Shown here one piece after another: positions 4,662 through 33,627 of a DNA stretch of 34,501 nucleotides. Positions within the stretch are counted from its first letter, which is position 1, and every line of letters begins with the position of its first letter. The stretch comes from Faecalibacillus intestinalis (GTDB lineage Bacteria; Bacillota_I; Bacilli_A; Erysipelotrichales; Coprobacillaceae): positions 1 through 34,501 of the forward strand of contig NZ_PYLQ01000027.1 of the NCBI RefSeq assembly GCF_003024685.1, written 5' to 3'. Below the pieces are notes generated by a model. That model saw only the letters and a list, made by a program, of their open reading frames with translations, was not told the origin of the DNA and did not search any database. The position numbers and the translations under genes are program-made.

Positions 4662-5447
4662 ATGGATAAGATATTATTTTTTGACATTGACGGGACACTA
4701 GGACAACATGGTGTTATTACAGAATCAAATTTAAAAGCACTGCATTTATTAAAAGAAAAAGGATATAAGACTTTTATTTGTACGGGAAGAGCTCCATTTT
4801 ATGCAAGTCGTTTATTCGGTAATCTTGTAAGTGGGATTATTAGCTGTAATGGACGCTATATTCTTTATGAAGGAAAGAAGCTTTATAGTAGAGCATTTAC
4901 GAAGGAACAATTAGATTATTATGTACATAAGCTTGATCAAGGAAAACTAGGGGCGATGTTTGTTAGTGATGATAAAGCTTTAAAATATCATTTAGATCAA
5001 AAACAAGAAGTTGATTTAGAAAAGGAATATGGTATTGAACATCTTGTTGATTCTTTAGAAGGAGATTTTTATACATTTGATATGTTTTATCAAAGTCAAG
5101 AACATTATCAAACAATGGTTGAAATCTTTAAAGAAGATTTAATTATTAATGATCATGGCGGAATGGGTTCTTGTGATTGTTCAACAATTGAATTTGATAA
5201 AGGCAGCGCGATTGCCTATCTATTAGATTATTTCCATATTGATAAGGATAGTGCTTATGCATTTGGCGATGGTTATAATGATCAAGCGATGTTTAGAGAA
5301 GTAGGACATGGCATTGCGATGGGTAATGCAGTAGATGTTTTAAAAGAAAAGGCAACTTATGTGACTGATGATTTTGATCAAGAGGGAATAATCAAAGCAT
5401 TGTATCACGAGGGGGTGCTTCATGAATGTACGTGTACGAAAAAATAA
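4662..5447 (+). CDS. Cof-type HAD-IIB family phosphatase
   Basis: 261 residues with all four HAD motifs: DIDGT (Asp8, Asp10), TGR (Thr41), Lys180 of EFDKGSA, and GDGYND (Asp203, Asp207). The large C2B-type cap between about 85 and 170 is typical of Cof/YidA sugar-phosphate and flavin-phosphate phosphatases. The substrate cannot be read from sequence. It starts 2 bases after the methyltransferase stop, and its last 22 bases overlap the AraC gene, so it sits in the middle of a four-gene unit. Confidence 0.9.
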   Translation: MDKILFFDIDGTLGQHGVITESNLKALHLLKEKGYKTFICTGRAPFYASRLFGNLVSGIISCNGRYILYEGKKLYSRAFTKEQLDYYVHKLDQGKLGAMFVSDDKALKYHLDQKQEVDLEKEYGIEHLVDSLEGDFYTFDMFYQSQEHYQTMVEIFKEDLIINDHGGMGSCDCSTIEFDKGSAIAYLLDYFHIDKDSAYAFGDGYNDQAMFREVGHGIAMGNAVDVLKEKATYVTDDFDQEGIIKALYHEGVLHECTCTKK

Positions 5448-6250
5448 AATTGGATGAACATTTACCTATTAAAATATTAGATTTGTATTATGAAAGTAGT
5501 GAAGAAAATGTTGAAAAACATTGGCATAATAGTATAGAAATATTGGTTCCTATATTAGGTAAGGTAGAAATATGGGATAATGGACATATGATTAGAAGTC
5601 AAAATGTTGATGTTTATATTATTAATAGTAAAAATATTCATGGGATTTCTTTTGTAAGCGGGTATGAGGTTTATAAAGGATATGGCATTCAAATTAATTA
5701 TGATTATATTAAAAGCATATTTCCTTTGATTGATCATTATGAATTTGTACAACCAGATGGAGAAGTTTCCCGGGAAATAGTACGAACAATCTATAGAATA
5801 GTCGATATTTATGATGATGATAAAGAGTATGGTCATATTGCGATTAAAGGTCTAACAGATATATTAATGTATATACTTTTAAAAAAATTACTTGTAAGAA
5901 AAAAATATGTACTTCAAGAAAATGAAATAAATAATAATAAAATAGTGAAGATTGTTAATTATATTGATCAACATTATAAAGAAAACTTAAGTATACAAGT
6001 ATTAGCTGATCATTTTTATGTTTCACAATCTTATTTATCAAGATATTTTAAACAAAATTTTGGAACAACAATTAAAAAATATATTGATAGTGTTAGATTG
6101 GAAAAAGCAATTAATGATATATTACATACTAATCTATCGATGACAGATATTGCTTATAATAATAGCTTTGCGAATCCTAAATCATTTAATAGAATTTTTA
6201 AAAGAATTTATAAAATGACACCTCATGAATATCGAAAGTTATTAAAATAG
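5426..6250 (+). CDS. AraC-family transcriptional regulator, cupin sensor plus two HTH motifs
   Basis: 274 residues. The N-terminal half is a cupin-like sensor (HWHNSIEILVP near 31-41, later NSKNIHGI). The C-terminal 100 residues are the AraC DNA-binding domain: first helix-turn-helix LSIQVLADHFYVSQSYLSRYF, and second in LSMTDIAYNNSFANPKSFNRIF followed by KMTPHEYRK. The start at 5426 follows GGGGGTG with 8-base spacing and overlaps the HAD gene in another frame. The likely targets are the surface-enzyme genes directly downstream on the same strand (inference from position). The ligand is unknown, probably a sugar or related small molecule as in many cupin AraC proteins. Confidence 0.9.
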   Translation: MYVYEKIKLDEHLPIKILDLYYESSEENVEKHWHNSIEILVPILGKVEIWDNGHMIRSQNVDVYIINSKNIHGISFVSGYEVYKGYGIQINYDYIKSIFPLIDHYEFVQPDGEVSREIVRTIYRIVDIYDDDKEYGHIAIKGLTDILMYILLKKLLVRKKYVLQENEINNNKIVKIVNYIDQHYKENLSIQVLADHFYVSQSYLSRYFKQNFGTTIKKYIDSVRLEKAINDILHTNLSMTDIAYNNSFANPKSFNRIFKRIYKMTPHEYRKLLK

Positions 6251-6323: not shown

Positions 6324-7799
6324 ATGAAGAATACAAAAAGATTTTTGCTTTGTTTTGTGATGCTATTTTCACTTGCGATAGCGCCTGTCTATGCAGTAAA
6401 TAGTAATCATGTACTTAATGGAACTTATTCTTTAATTGTAGATGAATATGATTGGGGAGTAGCAACACCAAGAGTAATTGTAAATGTTGATCAAGAAATA
6501 ACGACAATTGATAAAGATGTTTTAAAGGTTGTAGAAACTAAAGAAAATGCTGAAGATTTTCAAAGAACAATTGTAGATGCTTATATTTCTGATCAAAATG
6601 GTCAAAAAGTAGAAGGTGCTTCAAAATATTTTACAATTGATTTAAAAGTAAGTCCAACAGAAGGAAGTCCTTTCATTTATAAAAGTTTTAATGAATGGGC
6701 AGATCCTTATTATTTAACAATTTCATTAAAAGAAAATAAAGAAATAATTGATGGTCAAAATGAATATGATACTTTAAATATTGATACAAATTATACATCT
6801 CGTTCTTTATCTGCGGGAGATCAATTTGATTATTCAGGTAGATATCAAGCAACAGATGGAACAAATTATAGTTTTGCTACATATTCACCAGCAAAAGATG
6901 ATCATAAAAATGCTTTAGTTGTATGGTTAAATGGTGGAGGAGAAGGTGGTACAAATCCTCAAATAGCAGTATTGGGAAATAAAGTGACAGGTTTAATTAG
7001 TCCAGAAATTCAAGAAAAACTTGGTAATGCTTATGTTTTTGTTCCACAATGTCCAACGCTTTGGATGGATGGTTATGGTGATTTTGAATTTACTGAATCA
7101 GGATTAAAATTTACACCAAGACATACACCTTCAACATATGTAAAGAGTTTAATGGAATGTATTAAAGCGTATGTTGATAGTAATGATGATATTGATACAA
7201 GTCGTATTTATATTGGTGGATGTTCTAATGGTGGGTATATGACAATGCAAATGGTTTTATCGTATACTGATTATTTTGCTGCAGCTTTTCCAATTTGCAC
7301 AGGTTTTGATGCTAGTGATTTAAGTGAAAAAGATGCTCAAAAACTTAAAGATTTTCCATTATTTATTACGTATTGTGAAAATGATGATACGTTAGATCCA
7401 AATCAATTTTCAAGACCACTTATTGAAAAATTAAAAGCCGCTAACGCTACTAATCTTCATGTCTTTTCACCAGATGATGTTCATGATACATCAGGACTTT
7501 ATAATGGAGAAGATGGAAAACCATATCAATATTCAACACATTGGTCATGGATCTATGTGTTCAATGGAGAAGCCATTGAAGATGATACATCATTAGAATT
7601 ATTTTCATGGTTATCAAAACAAAGCAAACAAGTAAAAAATGAAAATGTAGAAATAGCAGATAAGGTTGAAGATTCTCAAAAAACAACAGAAAAAACAGCT
7701 GTAAAAACAGGAGACAATAGTCCAATATTTACTTATATGTCATTATTAGCTGTTGCAAGCTGTGCTTATTTGCTTATTGCACATAAAGAATATGAATAA
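6324..7799 (+). CDS. Secreted, cell-wall-anchored alpha/beta-hydrolase (esterase) with VKTGD sorting signal
   Basis: 491 residues. A signal peptide (MKNTKRFLLCFVMLFSLAIAPVYA) leads to a beta-rich domain (about 27-160) and a prolyl-oligopeptidase/PHB-depolymerase-like hydrolase. GGCSNGG gives nucleophile Ser301; YCENDDTLDP supplies the Asp and DDVHDTSG the His of the triad. After a charged stalk the C-terminus has VKTGD (460-464), a hydrophobic stretch and a short charged tail: a sortase-type signal, non-canonical because LP is absent. GGAGG lies 8 bases before the ATG. The same tail occurs on the next two surface proteins, and the AraC regulator is immediately upstream. The substrate is unknown; acyl or feruloyl esters on gut polysaccharides are possible (inference). 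Confidence 0.87.
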   Translation: MKNTKRFLLCFVMLFSLAIAPVYAVNSNHVLNGTYSLIVDEYDWGVATPRVIVNVDQEITTIDKDVLKVVETKENAEDFQRTIVDAYISDQNGQKVEGASKYFTIDLKVSPTEGSPFIYKSFNEWADPYYLTISLKENKEIIDGQNEYDTLNIDTNYTSRSLSAGDQFDYSGRYQATDGTNYSFATYSPAKDDHKNALVVWLNGGGEGGTNPQIAVLGNKVTGLISPEIQEKLGNAYVFVPQCPTLWMDGYGDFEFTESGLKFTPRHTPSTYVKSLMECIKAYVDSNDDIDTSRIYIGGCSNGGYMTMQMVLSYTDYFAAAFPICTGFDASDLSEKDAQKLKDFPLFITYCENDDTLDPNQFSRPLIEKLKAANATNLHVFSPDDVHDTSGLYNGEDGKPYQYSTHWSWIYVFNGEAIEDDTSLELFSWLSKQSKQVKNENVEIADKVEDSQKTTEKTAVKTGDNSPIFTYMSLLAVASCAYLLIAHKEYE

Positions 7800-7876: not shown

Positions 7877-7920
7877 ATGCATGTTTTTGACATGCATGTA
7901 AGCGCTTTATTTTATATAAT
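7877..7920 (+). promoter_or_regulatory. Operator-like palindrome, promoter elements and cre-like site upstream of the MBL-esterase gene
   Basis: A perfect inverted repeat ATGCATGT-N5-ACATGCAT occupies 7877-7897. TTGACA (7887-7892) straddles the loop and right arm; TTTTAT 17 bases later or TATAAT at 7915-7920 could be the -10 (the latter 22 bases away, so the pairing is unsettled). TGTAAGCGCTTTA at 7897-7909 resembles a CcpA cre half-site but lacks the conserved late C. A regulator bound here would cover the promoter. Confidence 0.55.
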
Positions 7921-7942
7921 AATAGAAAAGGAGGGAATATGG

Positions 7943-10837
7943 ATGTTTACAAAAAAGGTATTTATTAGTTCTTTAAGTATTATGTTTGCACTAAGTGGGA
8001 TAAGTGTTGTACAAGCTCAAAATACTGGAGAACAAAAAACAAATTCAGATATTTCTGAACTATTAACGCTTGATGAAAATAATAGCGAATTTTTAAAAAC
8101 GTTAATGAAAGATGGATATGCTGAATTAGGAAGGTACAAAGTCGAAAAAATCAAAGATAATGTTTATCATTGGGATGAAGGAACAAAGAAACTTCCTGGT
8201 GGAGCAACTGATGAAAATGGGGCAATGAATAATCCATCATCAATGTATTTTGTGTTATCAGAAGATGGTGTTGTATTAGTTGACTTAGGAAATGGTTCCC
8301 AAAATGAAGAAGATATTCAAAACGCTAAAACAATTGTTGAATCTATGACAGGTGATAAACATTTATCAATTATCATTACACATAGTCATGGTGATCATAC
8401 TGGTTTTGGTAGATCAAAAGAAGTTTTTAGTAATGTAACAGTAGACAATGTATATGTAAGTGATGCTGATTATGATGTTGCATTTGAAGCTATTTCTCAA
8501 TTTGATGGCAAAATAACAAAAGTACATAGTGGTGAAACAGTTGATATTTATGGTGCACCTTATGAATTTAATGTTGTTAATGCACATACTGAAGGTTCAT
8601 TAATGATTACTGATGAAACACATGAAGCATTATTTACAGGTGATACTTTCGGTAGTGGATTTATTTGGGCACTTTTTGAAACAAATGGTGGTAATCCACT
8701 TGCTGCATTAGATAAAGGATGTTCACTTGCTAGAAAGATTTTAAATAATAATCCATCTCTATCTATTTTAGCAGGTCATCGTTGGCAACAATTCTGGGAA
8801 GATAATGCACAAAGACCAAATGAAATGTCAATTCAATATTTCAATGATATGGCTCAAGTTATTAGTGGTTTATTAGATGGTACAACTATTTCAAATAGTT
8901 ATACAGCAGCATCTTGGGCACCAGATGCAGTTGAACTTTCAAGTAATGGTGCAAAAGCAAAAATCGATACATTACCTAAATATATTGAAGCTTATAAAAA
9001 AGCAGTTAATCAAATGCAAGAAGCTTATGTTTATAGTGGTAGTGATCAATTAAGTATTGAATCAGCAAATGCAGCTGCTGCACCTACATTTGTTGTTTAT
9101 CCTGATGGTAATATGTCTGATGAAGAAGCAGAAAAATATATTGAAGCATCAGGTATTAAAGAAATTGTTAATCGTTCAGCAAGTAAAGTTTATGTAGCAA
9201 GACCAGCTAATGGTGTTGAATTTACAAGTGATGATGTTCAAGGATTTGAAGCAATCGTAGGTAAAATAGGTGTATCTAGTAACTTTAAATTAATTGGAAT
9301 TGGTAATGGGGCTACATTCATTAATCAAAATTTAGCTTCTTATATGAACTTTGTTTCTGGTCTTGCATTAGTTAATCCAGAAAAAGGTATGGATGTTAAT
9401 GTTTCAGTACCAACTTATTTAGTAACTGATAATGATGAAATTGTAAATACTTATGTAAAAGCAAATAGTGCAACTAAAACTGAAGATGGTTATTATGTAA
9501 ATCCAGAAAGCCATTATGAAGTTGTTGCAGTTAATAAGGATACTGGTTTAGATGCAGTTTCTGCAACAAAAGATGCTTGGGAAAAAGTACTTAAGAAATT
9601 TGGTAGAATTGGAAATTATAGTGATGTTTATAAGGAAACAGCTACTTGGTATTCACGTCCTTTAATTTCAGGTAATAAAGAAGCTGATCAAGCAAGAAAA
9701 TATCAATATTTTGATTCTGTAGATGCTATTGATAATATTGATCGTTATGTTAATACACAAGATTTAGATAATGATGGTATTGATTCATTATGGTATGAAT
9801 ATATTCCTGAACAATCAAAAGATGCTAAAGAAGGTAGTGTTCCTGCAGTTGTTTTATTCCATGGAAATACAAATGATCCAAGAACACAATATGATACATC
9901 TGGTTGGGCACAAATTGCTAGTGAAGAAGGCGTTATTCTTATTTGTCCTGAATGGCAAGGACACACTTATCAAGGATATACATATGATCCAATGACAGAT
10001 GATTTAAATGCTACTGCAGATTCAGATGTTATTACAATGTTAAAACTTACTGAAGAAAAATATCCACAAATTGATCAATCAAGAGTTTATATTTCAGGAT
10101 TATCAGCAGGAAGTATGAATACAACAAATGCTGGTTTATCTGATTCAAAATATTTTGCAGCAGCAGCAGGTCACTCAGGTCCATTTGGAGCAAGTGAATT
10201 AAATAAAAAAGCAGTTGCTGAAAATAAAGATAAATATGATATGCCTATTATCTACTTTACAGGTGATGGTGATGAATATTGTAAAGGTGCATTTGATACA
10301 ACTGAATCAAATGGAGGATTACAAGTTGCACAACTTTATCAAGAATTAAATGATATGGAAGTAACACAACTTGAAGATGTTTTAGAAGCAGATGCTTATT
10401 TATATGGAGTTCCTTGGACAAAACGTTATACAATTGAACCTACAGCTGAAAATATTGCTAAAATTGATGTAGGAGCAATGGAAAATGCTAAAGGTATAGA
10501 AATTAGCATGGCTCGTATTTATGGATGGGGACATTGGAACTATACTCCTGATGCTAAATTGATGTGGGAATTCATGAGTAAATATGCTCGTGATGTTAAT
10601 ACTGGTGAAACAATTCGTTTAGATAAACAAACACCAGAAACACCAACTAACCCAGATCAAAAACCATCAGATTCTAATGAACCAACAAAAACACCAGCTA
10701 AAAACGATACAGTGACTTCTACAACTACAAACGTTAAAACAGGTGATTCAACACAAGTAATGCCATTGGCTGTCTTTGCATGCTTGTCTGCATTGGCTTT
10801 TATCCTTGTAGTAAAAAAGAGTAAAAAAAATAATTAA
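7943..10837 (+). CDS. Surface-anchored fusion: metallo-beta-lactamase-fold hydrolase plus alpha/beta-hydrolase
   Basis: 964 residues from the ATG at 7943, which has AAAGGAGGG 7 bases upstream and begins a signal peptide (MFTKKVFISSLSIMFALSG...VQA). The open frame extends 22 codons upstream without support. The first enzyme domain (about 45-330) has a full metallo-beta-lactamase metal site: HSHGDH at 147-152, His215, Asp234 in TGDT and His279 in AGHR. A linker domain follows (about 370-590), then a calcium-loop-like DLDNDGID (607-614). The second enzyme domain (about 620-900) has GLSAG with Ser721, TGDGD (Asp775 or 777) and His864 in WGHW, a likely esterase triad. A Pro/Thr-rich stalk leads to VKTGD (931-935), a membrane segment and KKSKKNN. 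Both active sites look intact. The two activities may act in series on one extracellular substrate (inference); neither substrate is known. Confidence 0.88.
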   Translation: MFTKKVFISSLSIMFALSGISVVQAQNTGEQKTNSDISELLTLDENNSEFLKTLMKDGYAELGRYKVEKIKDNVYHWDEGTKKLPGGATDENGAMNNPSSMYFVLSEDGVVLVDLGNGSQNEEDIQNAKTIVESMTGDKHLSIIITHSHGDHTGFGRSKEVFSNVTVDNVYVSDADYDVAFEAISQFDGKITKVHSGETVDIYGAPYEFNVVNAHTEGSLMITDETHEALFTGDTFGSGFIWALFETNGGNPLAALDKGCSLARKILNNNPSLSILAGHRWQQFWEDNAQRPNEMSIQYFNDMAQVISGLLDGTTISNSYTAASWAPDAVELSSNGAKAKIDTLPKYIEAYKKAVNQMQEAYVYSGSDQLSIESANAAAAPTFVVYPDGNMSDEEAEKYIEASGIKEIVNRSASKVYVARPANGVEFTSDDVQGFEAIVGKIGVSSNFKLIGIGNGATFINQNLASYMNFVSGLALVNPEKGMDVNVSVPTYLVTDNDEIVNTYVKANSATKTEDGYYVNPESHYEVVAVNKDTGLDAVSATKDAWEKVLKKFGRIGNYSDVYKETATWYSRPLISGNKEADQARKYQYFDSVDAIDNIDRYVNTQDLDNDGIDSLWYEYIPEQSKDAKEGSVPAVVLFHGNTNDPRTQYDTSGWAQIASEEGVILICPEWQGHTYQGYTYDPMTDDLNATADSDVITMLKLTEEKYPQIDQSRVYISGLSAGSMNTTNAGLSDSKYFAAAAGHSGPFGASELNKKAVAENKDKYDMPIIYFTGDGDEYCKGAFDTTESNGGLQVAQLYQELNDMEVTQLEDVLEADAYLYGVPWTKRYTIEPTAENIAKIDVGAMENAKGIEISMARIYGWGHWNYTPDAKLMWEFMSKYARDVNTGETIRLDKQTPETPTNPDQKPSDSNEPTKTPAKNDTVTSTTTNVKTGDSTQVMPLAVFACLSALAFILVVKKSKKNN

Positions 10838-10912: not shown

Positions 10913-11611
10913 TTATTTTTTAGATGATTTTTTCTTATAAACAACAATACCAATAATGACAACAACACTGACAACAAGAAGTGAAACATAAGGAGTGATA
11001 TTTGTATTATCTCCTGTTTTTACAGCTGTTGAAGATGTTTGTTTTACAGTTGTTTTGTTATTTGTATCATTTTTAACAGTTTCAGTTTTATCTGTTTTAT
11101 CAGGATTTATTGGAGTTGGTGTCTCTAAAATATGAACAGGTACATAAACTGTTTTAAATGAACTCAATTCTTCTCCTTTAGAAAAACTAAAAACCATTTC
11201 AATTTGTTCGATTTGAGACCAATTAAATGTTTGATTATCAGGACCAATAAGTGTTTTTATATTTTTTAATTCGTTATTACTAATAGTGATAGTCCCGTTT
11301 CCACTATCATCAACTGCCTTGTCAGGTTTAACATAAATAGATCCTATAGAAGATCCGTTACTATAAATATACATTTCTAATAGTTCAACTTTTGTATCTT
11401 TTGCTTGAACATTAAAAACAATATCATTTTCTCCATCCCATGTAGATGATACCAATGTTAATGATGGTGTTTCTGTTAAAGTCTCATTACTTTCTTCAAT
11501 TTGATTTTCATTTTGTACTTCTTCTAATGCATGAATATTTGTTGTAAAAAACATTGAGGCTGTCAATGAAAATGACAACAAGGATGCTAAAAATAATTTT
11601 TTCTTTTTCAT
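10913..11611 (-). CDS. Small secreted cell-wall-anchored protein with VKTGD sorting signal
   Basis: 232 residues. A signal peptide (about 1-28, ending near IHA) is followed by an acidic segment, a beta-rich domain (about 50-165) and a Thr/Lys/Asp-rich stalk. The end is AVKTGDNT, a hydrophobic stretch and KKKSSKK, a sortase-type signal like those of the two preceding surface enzymes. No catalytic motif is seen, so an adhesin or accessory role is possible; no family recognised. AAAGGAG lies 6 bases upstream of the ATG. It is transcribed from its own promoter and has an 11-bp inverted repeat in its leader. Confidence 0.8.
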   Translation of the reverse strand: MKKKKLFLASLLSFSLTASMFFTTNIHALEEVQNENQIEESNETLTETPSLTLVSSTWDGENDIVFNVQAKDTKVELLEMYIYSNGSSIGSIYVKPDKAVDDSGNGTITISNNELKNIKTLIGPDNQTFNWSQIEQIEMVFSFSKGEELSSFKTVYVPVHILETPTPINPDKTDKTETVKNDTNNKTTVKQTSSTAVKTGDNTNITPYVSLLVVSVVVIIGIVVYKKKSSKK

Positions 11612-11794: not shown

Positions 11795-12006
11795 ATATAA
11801 ATCGTTGATATGGATTAGTAAATAAAGGATGCTGTTTTAGAGAGGGAGAGAAGCTGGAAACTCCTACAGATAGTTTATTGAATTCACCATGGAGAGCACC
11901 TAATCAGTGACGTGAGACTGCGTTAATGTTTAATTAAGAGCATGTTTTAAACATGAATTAGGATGGTACCGCGATCAACTCGTTCCTAGAGGAATGAGTT
12001 TTTTTA
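11795..12006 (+). promoter_or_regulatory. T-box riboswitch, phenylalanine-specific, upstream of pheST
   Basis: The leader has a stem I region with the specifier TTC (Phe) at 11883-11885 in the context GAATTCACC. The conserved T-box GGATGGTACCGCG is at 11961-11973, ready to pair with the uncharged tRNA acceptor end. A terminator follows (AACTCGTTCC-TAGA-GGAATGAGTT, then T-run, 11977-12005). Uncharged tRNA-Phe should stabilise the antiterminator and turn on pheST. Confidence 0.93.
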
Positions 12007-33359: not shown

Positions 33360-33627
33360 ACATTTGATATAAATACTGTGAAAAGAAAGAGTAGACGTTG
33401 ATCTTTAGCGTAGAGATTTCCTGGTAGGTGAAAAGGAAAGTAGAGATTTTTGTTGAATTCATCTTGGAGTAGAGTGTTGAACAGTTTTAAGTAGGCATCT
33501 CCGGTTACACCCGTTAAAGTGGAAGAGTATGATTGTACTCGATGAGGTTAGTATAGTAATATACTAATAAACAAAGGTGGTATCACGAAGCGATAGCTCT
33601 CGTCCTTAGAGGATGAGAGCTTTTTTA
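33360..33627 (+). promoter_or_regulatory. T-box riboswitch, probably phenylalanine-specific, upstream of aroF
   Basis: Specifier TTC (Phe) at 33458-33460 in GAATTCATC, the same context as in the pheST leader. The T-box GGTGGTATCACG is at 33576-33587, with a T replacing the C of the common GGTACC form. Terminator: AGCTCTCGTCC/GGATGAGAGCT with T-run (33595-33626). Uncharged tRNA-Phe would raise DAHP synthase and so aromatic amino acid synthesis. Confidence 0.92.

Follow-up and report, generated by a model that had tools for sequence, protein, structure and literature searches.

A putative surface protein of Faecalibacillus intestinalis combining a metallo-beta-lactamase-fold hydrolase, a degenerate esterase domain and a serine esterase

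Results and discussion

A single gene of Faecalibacillus intestinalis encodes a 964-residue chain in which an apparently intact metallo-beta-lactamase (MBL)-fold hydrolase and a serine esterase are bridged by a degenerate copy of the esterase fold (Table 1). Each domain belongs to a known fold, while the combination is new, conserved and recurrent across the order Erysipelotrichales. The gene lies in a window of 34,501 bp, the whole stretch of DNA that was analyzed. A preliminary description had proposed that an MBL fold and an esterase are fused in this one chain, and the open reading frame, Pfam matches and predicted model all bore this out. The residue numbers it gave for the seven metal ligands and for the Ser and His of the esterase triad were also correct.

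Table 1. Features of the gene and its surroundings (positions in the window)
Feature	Position	Strand	Remarks
AraC-type regulator gene	5426..6250	+	approximately 35% identical to AraC genes directly downstream of the MBL-esterase gene in L058 and L059
EstA-type surface esterase gene	6324..7799	+	upstream gene; Ig-like and alpha/beta-hydrolase domains, AVKTGD sorting signal
Perfect inverted repeat, TGCATG-7 nt-CATGCA	7878..7896	+	adjoins the cre-like site
cre-like (CcpA) site, TGTAAGCGCTTTAT	7897..7910	+	directly upstream of TATAAT
TATAAT	7915-7920		just downstream of the cre-like site
Ribosome binding site, AAGGAGG	7928..7934	+	
MBL-esterase CDS	7943..10837	+	964 aa; components from signal peptide to sorting signal are listed in the next five rows
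Signal peptide, residues 1-25 (MFTKKVFISSLSIMFALSGISVVQA)	7943..8017	+	by inspection of the sequence
MBL-fold domain, residues 58-345	8114..8977	+	ligands H147, H149, D151, H152, H215, D234, H279
Middle domain, residues 368-600	9044..9742	+	degenerate alpha/beta-hydrolase; GIGNGATF, N455 at the nucleophile position
Serine esterase, residues 602-896	9746..10630	+	PHB depolymerase / feruloyl-acetylxylan esterase type; S721, D777, H864
C-terminal sorting signal	10730..10834	+	NVKTGDS, hydrophobic stretch, KKSKKNN

The two putative catalytic domains

The Pfam model Lactamase_B matched residues 98 to 243 (E = 3.4e-10). The predicted model of the domain has the alpha-beta/beta-alpha sandwich of the fold and superimposed on MBL structures with Z scores of 18 to 20 (up to 19.8) over 210 to 260 residues. 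The HxHxDH motif (H147-S-H149-G-D151-H152) is kept in all alignment rows that span it, and H215, D234 and H279 complete the metal site. All seven ligands are retained in relatives down to approximately 30% identity, the sole exception being a Gln for H215 in the first MBL domain of locus L069, and the bridging-type Asp, D234, is present in every row. Judging by these residues, the domain is apparently a binuclear metal hydrolase with an intact-looking site. Since enzymes with the same metal set hydrolyze very different bonds, the ligands do not reveal its reaction, and the nearest sequence profiles, LACTB2, glyoxalase II and GOB-18, have no single common function. The fold, the full set of binuclear ligands and the bridging Asp are shared with glyoxalase II, LACTB2 and lactonase-type MBLs (PDB 4ad9, 1xm8, 2xf4 and 5i0p); unlike these, the domain studied here is secreted inside a multidomain chain and carries the motifs NNPSSMY and GHRWQQ, which it has in common with its own relatives.

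In the esterase domain, Pfam Peptidase_S9 matched residues 656 to 748 (E = 2.9e-7). The nucleophile elbow GxSxG is formed by G719-L-S721-A-G723, and S721, D777 and H864 are kept throughout the alignment. The triad Asp, left unnumbered in the preliminary description, is most likely D777, since this residue is kept in all 21 rows spanning the position and D775 is not. The model of the domain superimposed on the PHB depolymerase 9byu with a Z score of 26.9 (rmsd 2.6, 248 residues) and on feruloyl and acetylxylan esterases with Z scores of 21 to 24. The NCBIfam model NF050058 (extracellular type 1 scl-PHA depolymerase) gave an E value of 1.1e-21, its 77.5 bits lying below the cut-off of 150. With PHB depolymerases and CE1-like feruloyl and acetylxylan esterases (9byu, 8daj, 9j07, 5x6s, 8jh8) the domain shares the fold, the Ser-Asp-His triad and the HGN oxyanion region, at 14 to 19% identity to the structures; it differs from them in that its chain also carries an MBL domain and a dead version of the fold. 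The earlier proposal that both active sites are complete thus stands, with ligands and triad conserved in relatives. As both are conserved down to approximately 30% identity, the alignments indicate that neither site is a product of chance.

A degenerate esterase between the two

The region from about residue 370 to 590, left unassigned in the preliminary description, is indeed a separate domain, and structure prediction now assigns it as a degenerate alpha/beta-hydrolase. Folded alone it reached a pLDDT of 90.6 (full-chain model: pLDDT 89, pTM 0.83) and matched the feruloyl esterase 8jh8 with a Z score of 14.8 at 3.0 A over 175 residues. The nucleophile position, 455, is occupied by N, D, K, S, E or T in relatives, and no Ser or His of the domain is conserved (at least 70%) among those aligned; for these two reasons we call the domain a pseudo-esterase, with a predicted alpha/beta-hydrolase fold. 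That structure prediction might expose one of the domains as non-enzymatic had been foreseen at the outset, and this proved true of the middle domain only, the MBL and esterase sites being intact. A reading of the domain as a flavodoxin, which came from Foldseek on the full model, was dropped after the domain had been folded alone.

No convincing match to the middle domain was found among PDB sequences, and hhalign detected no sequence similarity between it and the active esterase. Because profile homology was undetected, the case for common descent of the two comes from the fold only. The middle domain and esterase occur together without this MBL in six other loci (L008, L009, L013, L064, L065 and L068), so the middle domain is a companion of the esterase.

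Predicted surface location and expression

The N-termini of four relatives (L006, L018, L021 and L057) resemble the signal peptide. At the other end of the chain, the VKTGD motif occupies residues 931 to 935. A DNA pattern found 14 such motifs genome-wide (one for the reversed control pattern), 13 of which lie 31 to 41 amino acids from the C-terminus of their ORF, and four sortase genes in the genome exceeded the cut-off. The features of a sortase substrate are therefore present: a C-terminal motif, a hydrophobic stretch, a basic tail and a sortase in the genome. The cut-off of the LPXTG anchor domain TIGR01167 was narrowly missed (15.3 versus 15.9 bits). We infer that the protein is anchored by sortase on the outer face of the cell. 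The view of the chain as wall-anchored was thus right in that a sortase-type signal is present, although its class is VKTGD and not LPXTG. The convergent gene at 10913-11611 (minus strand) encodes a small surface protein of 232 amino acids with a signal peptide and an AVKTGD sorting signal, for which no Pfam match was found; together with the EstA-type and MBL-esterase genes, it makes three genes in a row with a VKTGD-class signal.

Although the reading frame is open over 7877-10837, we favor 7943 over 7877 as its start: AAGGAGG precedes 7943 by 8 bases, and translation from 7877 would begin inside the promoter and cre-like region. The cre-like site deviates from the consensus used at two positions; in five of five nearest relatives such a site lies 40 to 58 bases before the start, and the L057 copy is perfect. 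In the same stretches, the site was found upstream of 4 of 67 other genes, and the chance level is 7 to 10% per shuffled upstream region. From this site we predict that expression is repressed by glucose. The inverted repeat is a possible operator.

Neighboring genes

The upstream EstA-type esterase, with an Ig-like N-terminal domain (PF18435), represents a type found in many members of the order (58 of 315 genomes). In L050 and L052, relatives of it form part of the MBL-esterase chain, whereas in this window it stands as a gene of its own. It is absent beside the MBL-esterase gene in L057, L058, L059 and L018, and we therefore rejected a conserved gene neighborhood as proof of function. The closest relatives have no one common neighborhood, except for an AraC gene in some; the identity of these to the AraC-type gene here is weak evidence of orthology because the AraC family is large. 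RpiR-type regulators adjoin L056, L064, L068 and L069 as identified by Pfam, and others as recognized by eye; GH1-like genes adjoin L012, L055 and L065, also by eye. L097 lies in an L-rhamnose locus (PTS, rhamnosidase, RhaB, RhaA, RhaD and lactaldehyde reductase) and L096 neighbors a rhamnosidase and a PTS. Both of these relatives are without the MBL domain, and no match to GH78 (rhamnosidase) was found in the present genome. The neighbors of relatives point to carbohydrate catabolism, with the rhamnose link limited to relatives without the MBL.

Elsewhere in the window, T-box leaders precede the phenylalanyl-tRNA synthetase genes (11796-11990) and a DAHP-synthase-like gene (33369-33610). The first and last 157 bases of the contig (1-157 and 34345-34501) have the same sequence, which is part of a DAHP-synthase-like gene. 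Contigs C26 (96%) and C27 carry further copies at their ends, so that a circular contig was rejected in favor of an assembly break at a repeated gene.

Distribution and repeated fusion

Of 315 Erysipelotrichales genomes, 12 from two families (G000, G005, G014, G061, G063, G065; G106, G116, G120, G123, G142, G143) encode the series of MBL, middle domain and esterase; the G063 copy is divided between two contigs, and the G143 copy is truncated within the esterase. Approximately 470 further genomes, sampled within the class and phylum, gave only generic MBL or single-domain matches. No match to the MBL-esterase was found in viral contigs, and plasmids gave only single-domain matches below 35% identity. 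The combination had been called unusual, which holds outside the order in the sampled genomes, but within it the combination is a conserved family feature. No description of an MBL-esterase fusion in these bacteria was found in the titles and abstracts of the literature matches. A further parallel, to judge from title and abstract, is with the multimodular carbohydrate esterases of gut bacteria, such as fused acetyl-feruloyl esterases (PMC7110780), which likewise carry several ester-cleaving modules per chain; that type joins serine esterases together, whereas the chain described here adds a metal-dependent MBL domain.

Added modules in some chains are of the EstA, PF00756, COesterase or GDSL type. 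Chains of the second family are longer, through EstA modules (L050, L052), a carboxylesterase (L055), or PF00756 with SLH or choline-binding repeats (L051, L054). The chain encoded at L052:281-7105 has 2274 residues and runs from an EstA-like module through the MBL, pseudo-esterase and esterase to two EstA modules. The esterases of L062 and L063 group with the MBL-fused clade and their MBLs with a different MBL clade, each placement being highly supported, and the L060 chain combines an MBL with a PF00756 esterase. Because of this mismatch and this second fusion, we conclude from the trees, which are small and have some long branches, that MBLs and esterases appear to have been paired more than once.

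Two other groups of proteins were observed. Genes for large secreted proteins, each containing two MBL domains (L093:6803-10111, L069:4277-7282 and L011), lie beside paired RpiR-like regulators. Cytoplasmic tandem genes of approximately 590 amino acids (L100 to L104) are related to the middle and esterase part, and their operon partners, recognized by eye, are DapA-like, PdxA-like, transporter and BNR/sialidase-like genes.

Function and alternative explanations

The best explanation, on which we are evenly divided between belief and doubt, is that the protein is a glucose-repressed, wall-anchored deacylase of carbohydrate-linked compounds in which the MBL forms a second hydrolytic center. Sortase would fix the chain on the outer face of the wall, where the PHB depolymerase/CE1-like esterase would remove acyl groups from esters. 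The dead esterase copy may support the live one as a scaffold or help it to bind substrate. For its part, the MBL domain would hydrolyze another ester, lactone or thioester bond in this class of substrate, both centers would act on one captured molecule, and the released sugars or acids would be used when glucose is scarce.

Other explanations were weighed against this. The MBL could act independently, for instance in detoxification or in quorum quenching of the lactonase type, and merely share the anchor of the esterase. Its profile matches to glyoxalase II, LACTB2 and similar hydrolases, a weak match to the AidB lactonase model and the existence of stand-alone and double-MBL relatives all fit such a role, but different MBL lineages have repeatedly been joined to esterases, and neither the cre-like site nor the sugar-type regulators suggest signaling; we consider it unlikely. 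Somewhat harder to accept is degradation of polyesters or hydroxyalkanoates, with the esterase attacking a short-chain polyester and the MBL cleaving released oligomers or lactones. A PHB depolymerase is the best structural match of the esterase and NF050058 matches it, yet that score is half of the cut-off, the fold match to acetylxylan and feruloyl esterases is nearly as good, and it is sugar genes and regulators that recur beside relatives, hydroxyalkanoate pathway genes not having been noticed nearby.

It is very improbable that the MBL is a beta-lactamase giving protection from beta-lactam antibiotics, although it carries the HxHxDH motif and resembles BcII and further class B enzymes in structure. 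The bridging-type D234 in every row is as in glyoxalase II and lactonase-type MBLs, the class B cut-offs were missed widely (bla_class_B_core, 19.3 versus 100 bits; B1, 15.6 versus 200), and the fusion with esterases also speaks against this function. Hardly credible is a secreted flavodiiron-like protein made of the MBL and a flavodoxin: Foldseek did align the MBL-middle pair to F420H2 oxidase/ROO proteins, but at 14 to 18 A rmsd, and the middle domain alone matches alpha/beta-hydrolases. Flavodiiron proteins have the metal motif HxExDH, whereas the motif here is HxHxDH.

Returning to the deacylase, the preliminary description had proposed two steps acting on an extracellular substrate; of this, the recurrent fusions seen in the sequences favor a coupling of the two centers, while the substrate and the order of the steps are conjecture. 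A more specific proposal, which we regard as possible though doubtful, is that these proteins form a new class of Erysipelotrichales surface multi-esterases, in which a metal-dependent MBL and a serine esterase with a dead esterase domain between them would act successively on the same acylated glycoside or glycan and cleave a pair of bonds beyond the reach of serine esterases alone.

Conclusions

Chains with several esterases reach 2274 residues in this family, and the MBL lineage varies between fusions. The protein is a clean test case for why a dead esterase copy stays beside a live one. If both centers share a substrate, the chain would give gut bacteria a one-molecule route for stripping ester groups that hinder the release of sugars, and a group of MBL-fold proteins without an assigned function would gain one.
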